From an uncultured Erysipelotrichaceae bacterium (lineage in GTDB: Bacteria > Bacillota_I > Bacilli_A > Erysipelotrichales > Erysipelotrichaceae), in contig CADABS010000034.1 of the NCBI GenBank assembly GCA_902786245.1, forward strand, positions 1 through 42,511: 42,511 bases of DNA. Direction: 5' to 3'. Position numbers and translations under genes: made by a program. Under the pieces are notes generated by a model. It did not search any database. It had not been told where the DNA came from and saw only the letters and a list, made by a program, of their open reading frames with translations. Below, one piece after another: positions 21,293 to 29,435 of the stretch (within the stretch, counting starts at the first letter, position 1; each line of letters begins with the position of its first letter).

Positions 21293-22729
21293 TTACAGCC
21301 CTTTAATGAATTCATGCAGATCTTCACGGTATTTGTAGTTTCCATGCAGTACATTGTAAAGCAGGACACCTGCGCCGTAGAACAATTCCCAGTAGCGGCT
21401 GTCCATCTTGGTGATTTCAGGAAGATGACGCTCAGGTATATATTTTTTCAGACTTTCCCGCAGTTCTTCCGGATCGGTGAGCAGATCGCAGTACACCGCC
21501 AAAGTGTCCGGGCCGACCGTGCAGATCATCGGCAGGACAAGTTTAGTAATCAGTTCAACGATGCCTTCCGGTGTTTTGGCAAGATCATATCTGTCTTCAG
21601 AAAAATTGAGCGTTTTCAGATAATTCGCACATTCACCGGCAAAGTCCTTCTTTCCGAAGACCGGAGTACCGTTGATGACGATACCTGCACCGCCGACGAC
21701 ATTGCCAAGCGGATGATAATACGCCAGAAGATTGCCGCAGTCGCGGTGGTTGGCATAATAGCCGACCGCACTTGCATTGGCGTCATTGCACAGAATAAAC
21801 GTACGTCCGTATTTCTTCGTAAATTCACCGACTACATCGATATCGAAGACTTTGGCTGTCGGCAGAGTGAGACGGCCTTCATAGACAACGCCCGGTGCAA
21901 CGACCGCTACGCCTTTTATTTCCGGATGACGGATGAACAGAACATCGAGTACGTCCTCCAGGTCGCGGAGATTGATTTCATCTTTAACTGTTACACCGCG
22001 TTCCATCGCTGCTTCTTTGTCTGCTCCGCGCCAGTGGATTTCGAATCTGCGGTTTCTGCGGATGATAGCCACAATGGCAATGGAACTGTCCCATTCAGGA
22101 TCATGTACATCCTCAATGAACTCTTCTGCTTTTTCTTTTTTATCAAGTTCTTCTCTGATCAGGTCGACAGTCTGCGTTACATTGTATGACGCAAATACAC
22201 TGGCAGGAATCTGTATGATAACCTTATCTTTCAGCACTTCCTGCGCTTTTTTGAGCAGATAGCCGATCTGCGGTGCCAGCAGGATCACATCCCTGTCCTG
22301 TGCCGCCTCAAACAGTTCTGTATATGGAACAGCCGAAAACTCATACTCAAGACCGAGTGTTTCCACCGCATTATTGAGCTTATCCGCAAAGAAAGAAGTA
22401 GTGAAACCGGAGGTGCAGCTTAACAGAACTTTGATCTTGCTGTCGGTGCCTGCTTTTTTCAGCGAACCGATCATCTGGGTGAACAGATCTTTGGCATGGT
22501 CAAGATCCTTGATTTCAAAATGCAGGAAGAAAACAGGCTCATCTGATTTTTCTGTTTCGATTGTCAGGGCGCAGATTTCATATTCCAGATGATAAAACTG
22601 CACATGACCGACGGCACTCTCTGTTACAAAGTCGATTTCATCTTCGCTTTTTTCGTCGATTTTATAAAACGGATCTGTCTGATCAAGAATCCATCTGCGG
22701 TAAATCTCATACATTTCTCTGTCTGTCAT
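21293..22729 (-). CDS. PTS EIIB(Lac/Cel)-like/ROK-like fusion protein
   Basis: This 478-residue protein has three parts. Residues 1-95 are an unrecognised alpha/beta N-domain. Residues about 98-183 match a lactose/cellobiose-type PTS EIIB domain, with the phosphocysteine loop LLSCTSGFTTS (Cys105), VILLAPQIGYLL and the closing IPASVFASYN. Residues about 215-470 match the ROK sugar kinase/regulator fold, with VVAPGVVYEG, the catalytic-type LCNDANASAVGYY (Asp316), GGAGIVING and the FAGECANYL strand. The ROK part lacks the N-terminal DxGGT ATP loop and the Cys zinc cluster, so kinase activity is doubtful. AGGAG precedes the ATG. It follows a histidine phosphatase gene by five bases. A PTS-phosphorylated sugar sensor is inference. 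Confidence 0.78.
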   Translation of the reverse strand: MTDREMYEIYRRWILDQTDPFYKIDEKSEDEIDFVTESAVGHVQFYHLEYEICALTIETEKSDEPVFFLHFEIKDLDHAKDLFTQMIGSLKKAGTDSKIKVLLSCTSGFTTSFFADKLNNAVETLGLEYEFSAVPYTELFEAAQDRDVILLAPQIGYLLKKAQEVLKDKVIIQIPASVFASYNVTQTVDLIREELDKKEKAEEFIEDVHDPEWDSSIAIVAIIRRNRRFEIHWRGADKEAAMERGVTVKDEINLRDLEDVLDVLFIRHPEIKGVAVVAPGVVYEGRLTLPTAKVFDIDVVGEFTKKYGRTFILCNDANASAVGYYANHRDCGNLLAYYHPLGNVVGGAGIVINGTPVFGKKDFAGECANYLKTLNFSEDRYDLAKTPEGIVELITKLVLPMICTVGPDTLAVYCDLLTDPEELRESLKKYIPERHLPEITKMDSRYWELFYGAGVLLYNVLHGNYKYREDLHEFIKGL

Positions 22730-22734
22730 TTTCT

Positions 22735-23361
22735 CTATCTCCTGCTTGTTATATAAACCGTTTTAGCCAATTCCGGATTGAGACCGGAAAAGTCATGTAT
22801 GATGACATCCTCGCACATAAAGACTACCCCATCATAGGAATATTTGAAAATAGCGCAGTTGCCGATACCTGTTTTTCTCGGAATCAGCGTATAAGCCTGC
22901 CATTTGTTGAAAAACTGACCGCATGCAGCGCCATGGGCTACGATCAGTGTCGTCGTATTTTCCTCTGCCATGTTCATAATACCGGTGACTGTATTGCTGA
23001 ATCTCTCCTGGAATTCCTTTTCCCCTTCACCGCCGTACTGTTTGAACTGATCGCCATACGGAAAAGAAGGATTCAGCGATTCGTCATGGCCTTCCAGTTT
23101 TCCGAAAAACCATTCTTTAAGCCCCCGGATTCTTTCATAGGGCATCTGACCGCCGGTAACGATTTCCAGAGTATCTGCAGCCCGTTCCGATGTGGAAGAA
23201 TAAGCATAGTCAAAAACAATGTTTCTGTCACGGAACCACTGCCCGGCAGTTTCTGCCTGGGCTCTGCCCAGATCCGTAAGCGGAGCGTCGCACCACCCCT
23301 GAATCTTATGGGCAACATTAAACATCGTCTGGCCATGACGCATCAGATATAAGGTCTTCAT
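22735..23361 (-). CDS. Histidine phosphatase (phosphoglycerate mutase-like) protein
   Basis: This is a 208-residue protein of the histidine phosphatase superfamily. It has the phospho-accepting MRHGQTMFN motif (His8 region), the SSTSERAADTLEIV segment with the second Arg, the Glu in LKEWFFGKLEG, and the second catalytic His in LIVAHGAACG. This fits a broad-specificity phosphatase better than a glycolytic mutase. AGGAG precedes the ATG, and an extended -10 (TGATATACT, minus strand) lies about 30 bases upstream. It is the first gene of a two-gene unit with the EIIB/ROK fusion, suggesting action on a phosphosugar. Confidence 0.9.
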   Translation of the reverse strand: MKTLYLMRHGQTMFNVAHKIQGWCDAPLTDLGRAQAETAGQWFRDRNIVFDYAYSSTSERAADTLEIVTGGQMPYERIRGLKEWFFGKLEGHDESLNPSFPYGDQFKQYGGEGEKEFQERFSNTVTGIMNMAEENTTTLIVAHGAACGQFFNKWQAYTLIPRKTGIGNCAIFKYSYDGVVFMCEDVIIHDFSGLNPELAKTVYITSRR

Positions 23362-23595: not shown

Positions 23596-24462
23596 TCAGT
23601 GAATCCTGCGGCCCAGGCACATGCGGACAAAGTCCGGATCGAAGTGCTTGGCCCTTGAGCCTGTATATCCCATGTCGAGGGAAGCGATCTGCTTCATCTC
23701 TTCCTCATTCAGCTCAAAATCCCAGATATCGAAATTTTCTCTGATTCTTTCTTCATGGGTGGATTTGGGAATAATGACAACACCCCGCTGAACATTCCAT
23801 CTCAGGATGACCTGACCGACGGTTTTATGATGAGATGCTGCAATTCCTTTAAGCATTTCATTTTCAAACGAATTGTAGCGGCCGCCGCCCAGCGGCGCCC
23901 AGGCTTCGGGGACGACATTGTAATATTTCATATTTTCCAGAGCGCCTTCCTGGGTGAAGTACGGATGGAGTTCCACCTGGTTGACCATTGGCGGAATCCG
24001 GACGGTTTCACAAAAATTTGCCAGGATGTTGGGATAGAAGTTTGAAACGCCGATCGCTCTGAGTTTTCCTTCTTCATATGCCTTTTCCATCGCTCTCCAG
24101 GCAGCGAAATAATCACCCATTGCCTGGTGAAGCAGATAAAGATCCAGATATTCCAGACCTGATTTCTGAAGGGATGCGTCAATGGCGGCAGCTGCCGTCT
24201 CTTCATTCACCATATCCGCCACCCACATCTTGGATGTGATAAAGAGTTCTTCCCTTGTGCAGACACCTTCTTCAACCGCCTGTCTGACAGCGGCGCCGAC
24301 GGCGTCCTCATTGCCATAGGAGGCGGCGGTGTCGATCAGCCGGTAACCTGCTTTGATTGCATTCAGCACGGATTCTTTACATGTTTCAAAGTCTCTGACC
24401 TGAAAGACCCCGAATCCTTCCATCGGCATTGTGACGCCGTTTTTCAATGTTCTGTATTCCAT
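23596..24462 (-). CDS. Aldo/keto reductase (copy A1)
   Basis: This 288-residue NADPH-dependent aldo/keto reductase is a TIM barrel of the AKR5/2,5-diketo-gluconate reductase type. The catalytic tetrad is visible: Asp in LIDTAASYGNE, Tyr in the same loop, Lys in ITSKMW and His in YLLHQAMG. The cofactor segment IPKSTHEERIREN is near the C-terminus. It is about 60 percent identical by eye to the reductase at 27712-28578, so they are paralogues from a cluster duplication. AAGGAG precedes the ATG by seven bases. It is the last gene of the eight-gene minus-strand operon. Confidence 0.94.
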   Translation of the reverse strand: MEYRTLKNGVTMPMEGFGVFQVRDFETCKESVLNAIKAGYRLIDTAASYGNEDAVGAAVRQAVEEGVCTREELFITSKMWVADMVNEETAAAAIDASLQKSGLEYLDLYLLHQAMGDYFAAWRAMEKAYEEGKLRAIGVSNFYPNILANFCETVRIPPMVNQVELHPYFTQEGALENMKYYNVVPEAWAPLGGGRYNSFENEMLKGIAASHHKTVGQVILRWNVQRGVVIIPKSTHEERIRENFDIWDFELNEEEMKQIASLDMGYTGSRAKHFDPDFVRMCLGRRIH

Positions 24463-24475
24463 GTTTTTTCTCCTT

Positions 24476-25093
24476 CTAGCGGATCATATTTGTGCGTACT
24501 TCCTTTTTCGTATCGGGAAGTCCTTCTTTCTCCTTCTGTGCCTGGATGGCTTTGATCATAAATGACATATTCAGAGCCAGATTGCGAATTGTCTGCACAC
24601 CTTCCTCGTCTTTATAGACATCTTCTGCCGTATAACCGTGAACATCATTCCAATACGAAGAAGTGACCACCGGCATCTCCCGCATTGTGAAAAACTGGTT
24701 CATTGCCTCAAAGGAAGCGGAACTGCCTCCCCTGCGATTGGAGATCACTGCTGCCGCAGGCATCATTTTCAGATTTCCCGGATAGCTGTAGAACAGTCTT
24801 TGCAGGAAGGAAAGAACGGTTCCGTTTGGATTTCCGAAATAGACCGGTGTGCCGACAATAATACCGTCCGCATCATCGAGTTTCGGATAAGTCTCATTGA
24901 CAATATCCTCGAAAACGCACTTACCGTTTTTCCGACAGGAAAGGCAGGCGATGCAGCCGCGGATATCCTTGTTGCCAATGTGGATGGTTTCTGTTTCGAT
25001 CCCCTCTTCTTTCAGAACCTCAGAAGCGATCTTTAACGCGGTGCCGATGCAGGCGCCGGCTTTGGGAGAGCCGTTGATCATCAATACTTTCAT
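24476..25093 (-). CDS. Flavodoxin-fold NAD(P)H-dependent FMN reductase with Cys cluster
   Basis: This 205-residue flavodoxin-fold protein begins MKVLMINGSPKAGACIGTAL, the FMN-phosphate loop. It then has a Cys-rich segment GCIACLSCRKNGKC (about 47-60) like that of iron-sulfur flavoproteins and related reductases. IIVGTPVYFGNPNGTVLSFLQR, the flavin-ring loop, follows. The frame can start at a GTG two codons earlier, but the ATG at 25093 fits the GAGGAG site, which lies inside the end of the upstream reductase gene. Two bases separate the genes. The likely role is electron transfer or quinone/nitro reduction in the redox operon. Confidence 0.9.
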   Translation of the reverse strand: MKVLMINGSPKAGACIGTALKIASEVLKEEGIETETIHIGNKDIRGCIACLSCRKNGKCVFEDIVNETYPKLDDADGIIVGTPVYFGNPNGTVLSFLQRLFYSYPGNLKMMPAAAVISNRRGGSSASFEAMNQFFTMREMPVVTSSYWNDVHGYTAEDVYKDEEGVQTIRNLALNMSFMIKAIQAQKEKEGLPDTKKEVRTNMIR

Positions 25094-25095
25094 AA

Positions 25096-25941
25096 TCACT
25101 CCTCAAAATTGCATTTGGTCACTGCCATTTTTTGAAGAGATTCTTCGGTCACCTTATAGAACGGCTCATGTTTGTTTAAGGTGGCGATCAGGTCCATTTC
25201 ATCTTCGGTCAGACTGAAGTCAAACACCTTCGCATTGTCTTCGATATGACCATGGGATTTAGAGCCCGGTACCAGACCGAAGCCCATCTGGATATGCCAT
25301 CTGATAACGATCTGGACAGTGCTTTTCCCGTATTTTTCCGCCATTTGCACAAGGACCGGCTCATTGAGCATTTCCGGGGAACCATGTCCCAGCGGAAACC
25401 AGGACTGCAGGCGGATGTCATTAGCGTCACAATATGGCTTTCTTGTCTCAGCCGGGAAGTACGGATGACATTCCACCTGCATGATCATTGGTCTGATTTC
25501 TCCTTGATCGATAACTTCCTGAATCTGGTCTGTCTGGAAGTTAGAAAGACCGATTGCGCGAATCTTTCCTTCCTTATACGCCTTCTCCAGCATGCCCCAG
25601 GCATAGAGATAATTGTTTACCGGATGATGCAGCAGCATCACATCAATATAGTCAACCCCGAGTCTGACAAGTGTATCATCAATGGCATAGTCCTTTTCAT
25701 AAAGCGTCGGCCCCAGCTTTGTCTCAAGAAAGTAGTCTTCCCTTTTCATACCGGATTTTTTTAAACCAAGTCCTACTTCAACCTCATTTCCATAGCGGTT
25801 GGCAGTATCGATCAGCTCATAGCCATGGTGCAGCGCAAATGCGACGTTATCTGTAATAAGATCACCGGACTGGCCGATCGTTCCGAAACCCAGTTTTGGA
25901 ATTTCCAGGCCGTTATTCAGCTTCATTCTGTTGACATTCAT
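25096..25941 (-). CDS. Aldo/keto reductase (copy B1)
   Basis: This is a 281-residue aldo/keto reductase with tetrad residues in LIDTANRYGNE (Asp, Tyr), LETKLG (Lys) and MLLHHPVN (His). The cofactor-binding VPGSKSHGHIEDN is near the C-terminus. It resembles the reductase at 28590-29435 more than the A-type copies. GGGGAG precedes the ATG by eight bases. It lies between the two flavodoxin-fold genes with spacings of 2-5 bases, so all are cotranscribed. Confidence 0.94.
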   Translation of the reverse strand: MNVNRMKLNNGLEIPKLGFGTIGQSGDLITDNVAFALHHGYELIDTANRYGNEVEVGLGLKKSGMKREDYFLETKLGPTLYEKDYAIDDTLVRLGVDYIDVMLLHHPVNNYLYAWGMLEKAYKEGKIRAIGLSNFQTDQIQEVIDQGEIRPMIMQVECHPYFPAETRKPYCDANDIRLQSWFPLGHGSPEMLNEPVLVQMAEKYGKSTVQIVIRWHIQMGFGLVPGSKSHGHIEDNAKVFDFSLTEDEMDLIATLNKHEPFYKVTEESLQKMAVTKCNFEE

Positions 25942-25946
25942 TTTGT

Positions 25947-26399
25947 TTACTCCCCTACAGAGTGTTTCTGTGCTTGTTTTGCATTAGTGATCATCCCCTT
26001 ATATTCCATGCCATAGAGACCGGCAAACCGTTTCATAGTATATTCACCGGCTTCCATCATCCACTGTTCCGGTGCAGCGCCCTGGTAAATAAACCAGAGT
26101 TTTTTCCCGCTGAGTTCACCCTGTGAAACCGGTCCGTAGAATCGGTCTAGAAGATTACGTACAGAACCGCAGATATTATGCCAGTAAACTGGTGAGCCAA
26201 TGATCAGCACATCCGCTTTTTTCATCATGGCCAGTACTTCATCAAACTGATCACCGGGTAATGTCTGACCATAAACATTGATTCGATAATCTGTCAGATT
26301 CAATGTTTCTGCTTCTGTGCCTTTGAGAAGAGCTGCTGCAAGACCTGCTGTGTTTCCCTGTCTTTCAGGGCTTCCATTGATGAATAATACTTTTGTCAT
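25947..26399 (-). CDS. Flavodoxin-fold NAD(P)H-dependent oxidoreductase
   Basis: This 150-residue flavodoxin-fold protein starts VLFINGSPERQGNTAGLAAAL (the FMN-phosphate loop, residues 4-24). It continues with VLIIGSPVYWHNICGSVRNLLDRFY and WFIYQGAAPEQW. It is shorter than the paralogue at 24476-25093 and lacks the Cys cluster. Its start overlaps the stop of the alpha/beta hydrolase gene in an ATGA. Confidence 0.9.
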   Translation of the reverse strand: MTKVLFINGSPERQGNTAGLAAALLKGTEAETLNLTDYRINVYGQTLPGDQFDEVLAMMKKADVLIIGSPVYWHNICGSVRNLLDRFYGPVSQGELSGKKLWFIYQGAAPEQWMMEAGEYTMKRFAGLYGMEYKGMITNAKQAQKHSVGE

Positions 26400-27283
26400 A
26401 TTCTTTTCCTTTCCGGTATCATCTGTTTTTCCCAGAAGATTACAGCCCGGTCGATCCAGCCTTCCGCTTTTGTGTGTGTACCAAGGCCGAAGCCATGGTC
26501 AAGTCCGGGAAAGACTTCTATCATGGCATCTGTGCCGTTTCTTCTGATTCTTTCAATTCTTCTTTCCATTGTCTGATATGAAGCGATCCAGTCTGCTGTT
26601 CCGACACAGTTATAGGTCGGCGGCTCATTGCCAAAGACTTCACCAAGACCGGTATACTGCATTACGACAGTTCCGGCATTGGGACATGGTTTTTCCCCAA
26701 AGGCAGCAGTTCCGTGCGATCCCAGCCAGGATGCCATTCTCGCACCGGCACTTCCGCCCCAGAGAGAATAGCAGTCCGTATTGATGTCAAGTTCTTCAGC
26801 ATGTTCAAAGATGAAGGCAATGGCTCTTGCCAGATCCTCACAGGCGGTCTGTGCCCCAGGTCTGTAAATCAGGGCAAAGGCGTGGTATCCGTTCTGTGAC
26901 AGTGTATATGCATGGGGCATACTGTCATGCATGGCACCGACGTAGGCAAAACCGCCGCCGGCATTGCATACAGCAAAGCGGCTTCCGGGCTCTCCTTTGA
27001 AATACCAGAGGCCGGTATCATTTTTACGTGGGTCTGCTTTCTTTTCTTCCTCACTGTAGATATCAAAGAAGATCTTTTCTCCTGCTTCGGCTCTTTCCTT
27101 CAGATGATTGCAGATGGTTACTGTCATATTGCCATCAATCTCTGAATACCAGGTCAGATCCATGCTTCCCAGGGTGTTTCCTGACATGTATCCTCTTTGA
27201 ACTGGGAACAAAAGTCTGCCATTTCCGTGGAAAGCCGAGTCATTGATCACTTCTTTGATTTTTGTATTTCCTGTATATGTCAA
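26396..27283 (-). CDS. Alpha/beta hydrolase, BD-FAE/xylan esterase-like
   Basis: This is a 295-residue cytoplasmic alpha/beta hydrolase. The nucleophile elbow is YSLWGGSAGARMASW (Ser in GGSAG), the oxyanion region is NAGGGFAYVG, and the His is in FPGLDHGFGLG. The GLGTHTKAEGWIDRAVIFWEKQM tail (about residues 267-289) is typical of the group often annotated as acetyl esterases. It carries no signal peptide. It lies inside the redox operon between the NTF2-like and flavodoxin-fold genes. A short sequence echo of its C-terminus is found at 23462-23480. Confidence 0.9.
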   Translation of the reverse strand: MTYTGNTKIKEVINDSAFHGNGRLLFPVQRGYMSGNTLGSMDLTWYSEIDGNMTVTICNHLKERAEAGEKIFFDIYSEEEKKADPRKNDTGLWYFKGEPGSRFAVCNAGGGFAYVGAMHDSMPHAYTLSQNGYHAFALIYRPGAQTACEDLARAIAFIFEHAEELDINTDCYSLWGGSAGARMASWLGSHGTAAFGEKPCPNAGTVVMQYTGLGEVFGNEPPTYNCVGTADWIASYQTMERRIERIRRNGTDAMIEVFPGLDHGFGLGTHTKAEGWIDRAVIFWEKQMIPERKRI

Positions 27284-27337
27284 TGATTCCTCCTTGTTTC
27301 ACAAAAGGTCAGCCAGTGCTGACCTTAACTATGCCGT

Positions 27338-27700
27338 TCAGTGAACGAGAGCCGTGAATGTGAACTGGATCAGTTTCCAGTCATCTTTCTGATTCTGATA
27401 AACTTCCGTCACCATGAAGTGATGTGTTGTCGGGCTGCCGTCGAGCATCAGACCATAGTCAACATCAGTCAGGACAATCGCGGTATCACCGAAGGAATGC
27501 AATTCACGGTTATGAACGGTGATGTCCGTCGGCTGGAAAATGCCGTCGGTGTAGTATTTTACTTCCTTGTCCAGATCGGCATTGGTGCCGATATGAACGA
27601 AATTGCAGTTGGGATCCGCAATCGCATACATCGTTTCGCCATCCCGGTTCTTCATCGCATTCCAGAATGCATCGGATAATGCAAACAGTTTTTCCTGCAT
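27338..27700 (-). CDS. NTF2-like/SnoaL-fold protein
   Basis: This is a 120-residue protein of the NTF2-like superfamily (DUF4440/SnoaL group), with an N-terminal helix (FALSDAFWNAMKNRD), TMYAIADPNCNFVHIG, and strands GDTAIVLTDVDYGLM and HHFMVTEVYQNQKDDWKLIQFTFT. The fold forms a small hydrophobic pocket used by isomerases, dehydratases and ligand-binding proteins. The chemistry here is unknown. AAGGAGG precedes the ATG. Its position among reductases suggests a shared small-molecule substrate. Confidence 0.87.
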   Translation of the reverse strand: MQEKLFALSDAFWNAMKNRDGETMYAIADPNCNFVHIGTNADLDKEVKYYTDGIFQPTDITVHNRELHSFGDTAIVLTDVDYGLMLDGSPTTHHFMVTEVYQNQKDDWKLIQFTFTALVH

Positions 27701-27711
27701 ATGATCCTCCT

Positions 27712-28578
27712 TTAATCGTGGATGTTTCTTCTGTTCAAAAACTGAACGAGCTTTGGATCAAAATGGTTGATGATCTCGGAATGATCCAGAGACTTCGCAG
27801 TGATCTGTTCCATTTCCTCATCGGTCAGTGTGAAGTCGAAGAGGTCCTTATTCTGTGCCATTCTTTCCGGCTTTGTGCTCTTGGGCAGAATCACTACTCC
27901 TCTCTGCACATTCCATCTCAGAACGACCTGGGCAGCGCTCTTGCCGTACTTTGCACCGATTGCTGTCAGTTCAGGATCTGTGAAGATGCCGTGCTTACCT
28001 TCTGCCAAAGGTGCCCAGGCTTCCGGCTGGATGCCGAGTTCCTTCATGTTTTCCAGTGCTGCTGTCTGGGCGAAGAACGGATGCAGTTCAACCTGATTGA
28101 CAGCCGGCTTGATTTCCACATTTTCAACAAGATTCATCAGAACATTCGGGAAGAAATTGGATACACCGATTGCCTTCAGTTTGCCTTCTTTATACGCATC
28201 TTCCATTGCTCTGTAGGCGGAAAAGTAATCGCCCATTGCCTGGTGAAGCAGATAGAGGTCAAGGTATTCAAGACCGAGCTTTTCCAGGGATGTGTCAATG
28301 GCTTTCCTGGCCATGTCATAGTTCTTCATGTCCTGGACCCACATCTTGGATGTGATGAACAGTTCTTCTCTGGTGACAAGACCGGTTTCGATGGCTTCTT
28401 TGATGGCTGCGCCGACCGCTTCTTCATTCATATAGGAAGCCGCTGTATCAAAGGAACGATATCCTGCCTTGATGGCATCGATGACGACTCTTTTGCATTC
28501 ATCGGCATCGGGAATCTGGAAGACACCGAAGCCGACCTGAGGCATTTTTGCGCCTGTGTTCAATGTGACAAATTCCAT
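27712..28578 (-). CDS. Aldo/keto reductase (copy A2)
   Basis: This 288-residue aldo/keto reductase has tetrad residues in SFDTAASYMNEE (Asp, Tyr), ITSKMW (Lys) and YLLHQAMGDY (His), and the cofactor site LPKSTKPERMAQN. It is about 60 percent identical by eye to the copy at 23596-24462. AAGGAG precedes the ATG. It is the second gene of the operon, 11 bases after copy B2. Confidence 0.94.
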   Translation of the reverse strand: MEFVTLNTGAKMPQVGFGVFQIPDADECKRVVIDAIKAGYRSFDTAASYMNEEAVGAAIKEAIETGLVTREELFITSKMWVQDMKNYDMARKAIDTSLEKLGLEYLDLYLLHQAMGDYFSAYRAMEDAYKEGKLKAIGVSNFFPNVLMNLVENVEIKPAVNQVELHPFFAQTAALENMKELGIQPEAWAPLAEGKHGIFTDPELTAIGAKYGKSAAQVVLRWNVQRGVVILPKSTKPERMAQNKDLFDFTLTDEEMEQITAKSLDHSEIINHFDPKLVQFLNRRNIHD

Positions 28579-28589
28579 ATGATTTCTCC

Positions 28590-29435
28590 TTATTCCTGGG
28601 CATTGAAGTCCATGTTCATCTTTGCGTATTTCTGTGCTTCTTCAATCGTTGCGTTGTAGTAGCGGAGGTTCTTGTCGACTGATGCGATCTCTGCCATTTC
28701 TTCATCGGTGAGGGTGAAATCAAAGATATTGAAATTGTCTCTGATATGGGCGGGATTTCTGGAACCCGGGAAGATGACGTTGCCGGACTGTACGTGCCAT
28801 CTCAGAATGATCTGGGCATTGGACTTGCCGTATTTCTCAGCCAGTTTTGTGAAGACCGGTTCATTGATCAGGTTCTTGTCGCCATGTCCCAGCGGATACC
28901 ATGCCATTAAGCCCATGCCTGTTTCCGCAAGAACTTTCATGAGTTCTGTCTGCGGAAAGTACGGATGCGCTTCCACCTGAACCATCTGCGGTTTGATTTC
29001 AGCTGTTTCAATGATCTCCTTCAGCCATTCGATCGGGAAGTTGGAAAGACCAAGAGCCTTTACCTTTCCTTCCTTATAAGCTTTTTCCATCATTTTATAA
29101 CCTGTACGCCAGTCACCTGCCGGCTGATGCAGGAAGAGCAGATCGACATAATCCGTGCCGAGTCTTGCCAGAGTTTCATCGATGGCATTTTCATCGGTGT
29201 AGACCGTCGGCCATAACTTTGTAACAAGGAAGATATCCTCTCTTGCAACACCGCTCTTTTTCATTGCACGACCGACAGCCTTTTCATTCATATAGGCATT
29301 TGCTGTATCAATGAGGCGGATACCATCCGCCAGAGCGCTGAGAACAGAGAGTTCCGTTTCCTCAGGCTTAAGGAGGAAGACACCGATCCCTGCCATCGGC
29401 ATTTTGTTTCCATTATTGAGTGTTAAGTATTCCAT
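28590..29435 (-). CDS. Aldo/keto reductase (copy B2)
   Basis: This 281-residue aldo/keto reductase has tetrad residues in LIDTANAYMNE (Asp, Tyr), VTKLWP (Lys) and LFLHQPAGD (His), and the cofactor site PGSRNPAHIRDN. It is the first gene of the eight-gene redox operon. AGGAG lies about ten bases before the ATG. A TTGTAC-N18-TAATCT promoter is visible upstream on the minus strand, facing the divergent LysR gene. Confidence 0.94.
   Translation of the reverse strand: MEYLTLNNGNKMPMAGIGVFLLKPEETELSVLSALADGIRLIDTANAYMNEKAVGRAMKKSGVAREDIFLVTKLWPTVYTDENAIDETLARLGTDYVDLLFLHQPAGDWRTGYKMMEKAYKEGKVKALGLSNFPIEWLKEIIETAEIKPQMVQVEAHPYFPQTELMKVLAETGMGLMAWYPLGHGDKNLINEPVFTKLAEKYGKSNAQIILRWHVQSGNVIFPGSRNPAHIRDNFNIFDFTLTDEEMAEIASVDKNLRYYNATIEEAQKYAKMNMDFNAQE

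Follow-up and report, generated by a model that had tools for sequence, protein, structure and literature searches.

The window analysed here, a stretch of 42,511 nucleotides from an uncultured Erysipelotrichaceae bacterium, carries a gene whose product joins an N-terminal domain (N-domain), a lactose/cellobiose-type EIIB domain of the PTS and a ROK-fold domain in one chain. We lean towards reading this EIIB-ROK protein as a soluble sensor with two inputs, the phosphorylation state of the PTS and a ligand bound by the ROK domain, which would act through partner proteins, and the evidence supports a signalling protein over an enzyme or a transporter part. An earlier note, made from the letters of the DNA, had proposed either a PTS-phosphorylated sensor or a non-kinase sugar-binding regulator; the folds, the conserved cysteine and the missing kinase motifs partly support this, but the two alternatives are here merged into one. 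The gene and the parts of its product are as follows.

21293..22729, minus strand: gene for the fusion of N-domain, EIIB and ROK, 478 aa (open reading frame and translation, Pfam, AlphaFold2)
22439..22729, minus strand: N-domain, residues 1-97, a helix, five strands and a helix, with the motif F-[FY]-L-H-F at residues 67-71 (AlphaFold2 model of the N-domain alone)
22520..22522, minus strand: codon of His70, inside the LHF motif
22130..22438, minus strand: lactose/cellobiose EIIB domain, residues 98-200 (Pfam, NCBIfam, fold match)
22415..22417, minus strand: codon of Cys105, the predicted phosphocysteine, in the loop CTSGFTTS (aligned to the active cysteine of 1h9c)
21335..22096, minus strand: ROK-fold domain, residues 212-465, lacking the DxGGT loop and the zinc cluster (Pfam, fold, motif scan)
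21776..21787, minus strand: NDAN, residues 315-318, which we take to be the ROK sugar-site asparagine and a catalytic-type aspartate (translation and family alignment)
21632..21640, minus strand: AGE, residues 364-366, its glutamate presumably the ROK sugar-site glutamate; the histidine of GExGH is absent (translation and alignment)

Both halves of the window protein were recognised by Pfam, PTS_IIB (PF02302) at residues 100-177 with 38.2 bits against a curated cut-off of 23.6, and ROK (PF00480) at residues 270-367 with 34.9 bits against 22.9. The first family was matched by all 68 aligned family members at E 0.01 and the second by 67 of them, while neither the window protein nor any of the 68 gave a Pfam match to HTH or PRD families. 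NCBIfam yielded partial matches only, to EIIB and ROK kinases and far below cut-off, and holds no model for the EIIB-ROK combination. The AlphaFold2 model of the window protein, built with the alignment of 68 family sequences, had a mean pLDDT of 90.3 and a pTM of 0.82. When its domains were compared with PDB chains, residues 98-200 matched IIB-chitobiose (2wy2) with Z 18.7 (rmsd 1.2 Å over 103 residues) and 1iib with Z 18.2, and Cys105 fell at the active-cysteine position of EIIB in the alignment with 1h9c. The EIIB domain with its phosphocysteine position, as read in the earlier note, was thereby borne out. That note had named a structure unlike EIIB at residues 98-183 as the finding that would speak against it; an EIIB fold was found there, starting where proposed but ending further on, at about residue 200. 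In the model and its fold match the ROK part begins directly after the EIIB domain, and residues 212-465 matched ROK proteins with a best Z of 22.7 (rmsd 2.8 Å), kinases and regulators alike; the match to Mlc (3bp8_B) had Z 18.5 (rmsd 3.0 Å, 240 residues). Pfam, fold and motif scan likewise agreed with the proposed ROK-type domain that keeps NDAN without the DxGGT loop and the zinc cluster, and the N-domain said to precede both domains occupies residues 1-97 of the model.

Modelled alone, the N-domain reached a pLDDT of 88. Its fold matches were weak, the best being Z 8.8 (rmsd 2.2 Å, 80 residues) to 7zhm_C, a TriTu immunity protein; type III secretion chaperones gave Z 5-7, and rows of other proteins reached Z 7-8. 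With weak matches alone the domain was given no family, and the lack of a better match proves nothing.

Conservation was examined in two sets of family members. The first came from the best 80 of 267 confirmed loci and was found with search patterns that included LHF and the Cys loop, so that its conservation is partly by selection; partial or near-duplicate members were left out by choice, giving an alignment of 68 rows (A3). The second consisted of 40 fused members (L118-L157) hand-picked from the listed matches with no motif requirement, which share genomes with the 80 loci. The Cys loop was present in 68 of 68 members of the first set, which was partly chosen by that motif, and in 40 of 40 of the second. 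LHF was likewise found in all 40 members not chosen by motif, 37 of which read F-[FY]-[LI]-H-F and three YYLHF. Stand-alone N-EIIB proteins also occur, with the cysteine in 12 of 12 and with LYY in place of LHF in two.

This constancy bears on whether the EIIB-like domain might be unphosphorylated and serve only for dimerisation or docking. The EIIB-like domains that some regulators carry have been considered as interaction modules. For AtxA, PMC12680359 describes an EIIB-dependent contact with PtsG, but it also reports the EIIB cysteine as essential. Few parts of the family are as constant as the cysteine and the phosphate loop, which pure dimerisation would not need, and we regard a mere docking module as unlikely.

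In the ROK domain, Asn315 was kept in 67 of the 68 aligned members and Glu366 in 61 (Gln in the other 7). At position 316, which we take to be the catalytic position in ROK kinases, 56 members have Asp, 10 have Asn and 2 have Phe. A motif scan of 121 fused family proteins found DxGGT, CxCGxxGC and GExGH in none. The DxGGT and zinc motifs were also absent from 14 of 14 HTH-ROK regulators, and all 10 kinases taken from the window's order carried DxGGT, these kinases being open reading frames pulled from 13 loci by a search for DxGGT or the zinc motif. CxCGxxGC and GExGH each occurred in just one of these ten local kinases, so their absence is weak evidence against a kinase. With the histidine of GExGH missing, the sugar pocket is altered, and the ligand may be something other than a sugar.

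Trees were built for the two halves, and that of the ROK domain places it among regulators. In the ROK tree (60 rows), the 36 fused domains (31 of the 68 rows of A3 and 5 rows of alignment A2) fell on one side of a branch with support of 100/98, the next to join were the HTH-ROKs of two split operons (100/97), and the ten kinases with DxGGT stood apart (100/99). In the N-EIIB tree, 31 fused rows (28 from A3 and 3 from A2) grouped at 99/99 with a broken copy (L164) and a copy that lacks the ROK domain (L175), and the split pair lay outside; both trees are unrooted and some HTH-ROK rows sit on long branches. The split operons come from two genera (G060 and G063), where an N-EIIB gene overlaps a downstream HTH-ROK gene by 1 and 4 bases (L158 and L188). 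Among the close homologues of the fused ROK domain are HTH-ROK regulators, 304-347 residues long, which occur in the same genomes and in related ones. The profile of this group can be aligned to Lmo0178, MecR2, Mlc and TM1224 starting at the HTH; when the two split regulators were scanned singly their HTH stayed below the Pfam cut-offs, and it is read from the family alignment.

The simplest order of events on these trees and gene arrangements would be a stand-alone N-EIIB, then an N-EIIB paired with an HTH-ROK, then fusion with loss of the HTH, and then duplication; intermediates of this course still exist as stand-alone N-EIIB, N-EIIB beside HTH-ROK, and the fusion. The ROK domain would go back to a DNA-binding ROK regulator whose gene at first lay beside that of a separate N-EIIB. 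Descent directly from ROK kinases as a degenerate kinase was ruled out by the ROK tree. The earlier note had called this domain degenerate; its non-kinase reading is supported, but the domain groups with HTH-ROK regulators, and a regulator-type ROK deprived of its HTH describes it better than a decayed kinase. The same grouping counts against a soluble kinase driven by the PTS, in which phospho-EIIB would hand its phosphate directly to a sugar held by the ROK domain and so replace ATP. Donor and acceptor domains do lie in one chain, and the window protein retains NDAN and the AGE glutamate with the ATP loop missing, but the aspartate of NDAN is replaced in 12 of 68 members, and N-EIIB proteins exist without any ROK. 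We consider such a kinase very unlikely.

Another possibility is an anti-repressor, in which the HTH-less ROK domain pairs with a DNA-binding HTH-ROK regulator of the same cell and pulls it off DNA under the control of EIIB phosphorylation. It would suit the closest ROK relatives, which are HTH-ROKs encoded beside N-EIIB, and the window genome does have an HTH-ROK of this type (L166). At one locus (L176, G041:C16) 128 bases separate the fused gene from a downstream HTH-ROK gene, after which come PHP, maltose-acetyltransferase-type and Cof-type HAD genes. That locus is, however, the only one among 121 fused genes with an HTH-ROK of this type within 4 kb (of the other five listed ROK-type neighbours at this distance, four proved to be fused paralogues and the fifth looks like a ROK kinase), and the branch with partner-switching genes described below indicates other partners. 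We hold the anti-repressor to be rather doubtful.

The earlier note had asked for a search for other EIIB-ROK fusions and their neighbours, which revealed a large paralogous family. Four full-length copies were found in the window genome, on the window contig (C34) and on contigs C35, C50 and C63, and other paralogues have clearer partners than the window gene, namely partner-switching genes. In the first search for relatives, 62 of 100 genomes (the window genome included) had a match at E 1e-50 or better, and full-length copies counted by profile in ten genomes ranged from none (G061, N-EIIB only) to six (G041). Among 392 genomes sampled across the phylum, full-length members occurred in 18 and N-EIIB alone in one more (G061), all within the window's order; a genome outside the order (G179) had an HTH-ROK only. 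The fusion family was not found outside that order, which comprises Erysipelotrichaceae and relatives, in the genomes sampled, and the named relatives are Erysipelotrichaceae-type gut and rumen bacteria (Massilimicrobiota, Longibaculum, Sharpea, Lactimicrobium, Thomasclavelia and Stoquefichus). The four genome copies and the many in relatives rule out a one-off chimera or assembly artefact. Spread by plasmid or phage was also considered; no plasmid or phage record covers 80% of the protein, and the annotated matches are plain EIIB. The contig of one family member (L115) bears the label Hungatella sp. (MAG), a name from beyond the usual order; the bin may be mislabelled. Another member (G090:C1:2414335-2415906) has an open frame of 571 residues, in which additional sequence separates the EIIB and ROK halves.

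The three domains diverged differently. Between paralogous groups (2032 pairs below 45% identity) the EIIB domain was 44% identical, the N-domain 32% and the ROK domain 30%, while within groups (157 pairs at 55-97%) the values were 70%, 62% and 69%, respectively; pairs at 45-55% were left out of the comparison. That EIIB is the best kept and ROK variable between paralogues, while both are kept within orthologues, would be explained by a shared phosphate input and a ROK domain specialised in each paralogue.

The host genome could supply such an input. It encodes EI, HPr, seven EIIC and one complete Lac-type EIIA (G000:C18), the last beside two canonical EIIB genes. The window contig gave no match to EIIC, Lac-type EIIA, HPr or EI, so that the reported absence of PTS genes nearby holds for this contig, but a full PTS chain is present elsewhere in the genome. 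The seven EIIC genes, and a canonical EIIB gene that adjoins 3 of 107 non-redundant members, would fit an ordinary EIIB subunit serving orphan EIIC permeases in trans, with the ROK domain as passenger or allosteric brake. We give this the smallest chance of the readings considered: the window protein scored 50.2 bits against TIGR00853, the NCBIfam model of the transporter EIIB subunit, below its curated cut-off of 110, its contig lacks EIIC, and within orthologous groups the ROK domain is kept as well as EIIB.

The surroundings of the window gene name no clear output partner for the proposed sensor. The adjoining upstream gene encodes a histidine phosphatase, followed further upstream by same-strand genes that possibly belong to the same operon context:

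22735..23361, minus strand: 208-aa member of histidine phosphatase superfamily branch 1, encoded upstream of the fusion gene with a gap of 5 bases (open reading frame and Pfam)
23596..27283, minus strand: same-strand genes further upstream, perhaps an operon context, with 234 bases between them and the phosphatase gene
23596-24462 and 25096-25941, minus strand: aldo/keto reductases
24476-25099 and 25947-26399, minus strand: FMN reductases
26396-27283, minus strand: alpha/beta hydrolase

Cotranscription with the histidine phosphatase, as proposed before, is suggested by the 5-base gap, but the phosphatase adjoins the fusion gene in only 9 of 17 orthologous loci. Its absence from the other 8 rules it out as a universal partner, leaving it a candidate for the window gene only. 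In several of the orthologous loci with the phosphatase, aldo/keto and FMN reductases were also present further upstream. Over the longer stretch 23596-29435 (minus strand) the window holds four aldo/keto reductase genes, two by Pfam and two by the look of their sequence, and two FMN reductase genes. Scans for promoters and terminators around the gene were at chance (5 found against 5.6 expected and 4 against 4.0, respectively). Across the family loci we found neither a common neighbour nor a constant PTS operon context; gene calls at the loci were made by greedy longest open reading frame and some genes were missed, that for the histidine phosphatase of the window among them.

One branch of the family does point to partners. 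In all eight of its loci (L081, L082, L083, L090, L098, L105, L106 and L210) the fused gene is accompanied by partner-switching genes, identified by Pfam for representatives and by sequence likeness for the rest. A STAS gene lies 2-43 bases from the fused gene in seven of the eight, an RsbW-like ATPase is present where the contig is long enough, together with STAS-APH, and SpoIIE phosphatases occur in L082, L106 and L210; in L083 the contig edge comes just after the start of a SpoIIE-type gene. One of these loci is on contig C63 of the window genome (L210), where the order is EIIB-ROK, STAS, SpoIIE-ATPase and STAS-APH; Pfam identified STAS, SpoIIE, HATPase_c_2 and STAS-APH within L210:3286-6963, and their spacing suggests an operon. 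The eight proteins are mostly 45-62% identical to each other, which indicates that the linkage to partner-switching genes is old. Within 4 kb a STAS gene was counted for 8 of 121 fused genes, and most paralogues have unrelated neighbours, the window gene among those with no partner-switching neighbour. One of these 8, an orthologue of the window gene (L045), has a fusion of STAS with a Cof-type HAD phosphatase (L045:2313-3470) 814 bases upstream, with an opposite-strand open reading frame between them, and was left out as a case of partner switching. Fusions of STAS with an APH phosphotransferase recur in the partner-switching operons (L210:5767-6963, L090:6173-7351 and L082:11408-12592), and in L098:7495-9063 STAS, APH and an RsbW-like ATPase are joined in one chain.

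In the two-input sensor as we picture it, a Lac-type EIIA would phosphorylate Cys105 when PTS uptake is low, and the phosphate would drain away when uptake is high. The second input would come from the ROK domain, which may bind a small molecule, presumably either a sugar or a sugar phosphate, without phosphorylating it. The DNA-binding part having been lost, output must go through proteins, and the fused protein would contact these perhaps by way of its N-domain; the contacts and the direction of the signal are predicted. In the one branch the likely partners would be the STAS anti-sigma-antagonist, the RsbW-like ATPase and, in some loci, the SpoIIE phosphatase. The operon of this branch points to partners and that of the window gene does not, which is why we place somewhat more trust in a general sensor than in its specific form, a PTS-gated partner switching in which soluble EIIB-ROK reads uptake through its phosphocysteine and a ligand through its ROK domain and signals to STAS/RsbW/SpoIIE modules. 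The latter we offer tentatively, as a possibility. If true, it would provide a direct route from sugar uptake to control of the sigma-factor kind. This route would have arisen when the two proteins of a PTS-ROK regulator were fused and the DNA-binding domain was dropped, and later duplication would have left several copies in a genome that share their input but differ in their outputs.

By analogy, the nearest known logic for EIIB-ROK is that of Mlc and EIIB(Glc), a ROK-fold regulator coupled to an EIIB that carries the signal by phosphorylation, with the repressor bound by dephosphorylated EIIB (3bp8). The Mlc system consists of two proteins and uses the glucose-type EIIB of a membrane permease, whereas EIIB-ROK is a single chain that lacks both a membrane part and an HTH and carries an EIIB of the lactose/cellobiose type, whose fold is unrelated to that of the glucose type. 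In Escherichia coli, according to PMC3901232, Mlc is sequestered by EIIB(Glc), and the phosphorylation state of EIIB decides the fate of the ROK regulator. ROK regulators of the NagC/Mlc/XylR type (Lmo0178, 5f7r; MecR2, 4ija; the HTH-bearing TM1224, 2hoe) share the fold of the fused ROK domain (Z 19-23) and its clade in the tree with local HTH-ROKs, but the fused protein differs from them in having no HTH, an EIIB and an N-domain in front, and no zinc cluster. The PRD regulators MtlR, LicR, AtxA and Mga, LicR being one with an EIIB-like domain and a cysteine, resemble it in these two features and differ in their HTH and PRD domains, neither of which was matched here. For AtxA, MtlR and Mga, an EIIB-like domain with a cysteine in a signalling protein is described in PMC12680359. 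Partner-switching modules (STAS antagonist, RsbW/SpoIIAB ATPase, SpoIIE/RsbU phosphatase) are linked to the family through the operons of the one branch. To our knowledge, none of their known sensors (RsbR stressosomes and PAS or GAF RsbU/RsbP) is an EIIB or a ROK protein.

EIIB combined with PRD regulators and ROK combined with HTH are already known; EIIB with ROK and without HTH is new in that it was not found in the searched literature. No published description of EIIB-ROK fusions, or of a PTS EIIB together with partner switching, turned up in the library searched, from which subscription journals are mostly absent, and the statement in the earlier note that no example had been described stands within that library. 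We know of no PTS signalling to ROK-type or EIIB-bearing regulators that does not end on DNA. The family would be a PTS signal protein without a DNA-binding or membrane part, of which common gut bacteria carry several divergent copies per genome, and its partner-switching branch offers a defined operon for a direct test of the link between sugar uptake and partner switching. EIIB-ROK proteins match kinase and transporter models and are unlikely to be either, which is a warning for annotation.

Two further arrangements recurred around relatives of the separate halves. HTH-ROKs were repeatedly found beside PHP-type genes (L160, L161, L162, L176, L189 and L191), some with acetyltransferase or HAD genes as well, these neighbours having Pfam support in L176 only and being judged from their sequence in the other loci. 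Stand-alone N-EIIB genes with the cysteine (L169:6445-7098, L170:6651-7304 and L173:7786-8430) were located near genes that, by the look of their sequence, encode an RpiR-like regulator and a metallophosphatase-like protein.
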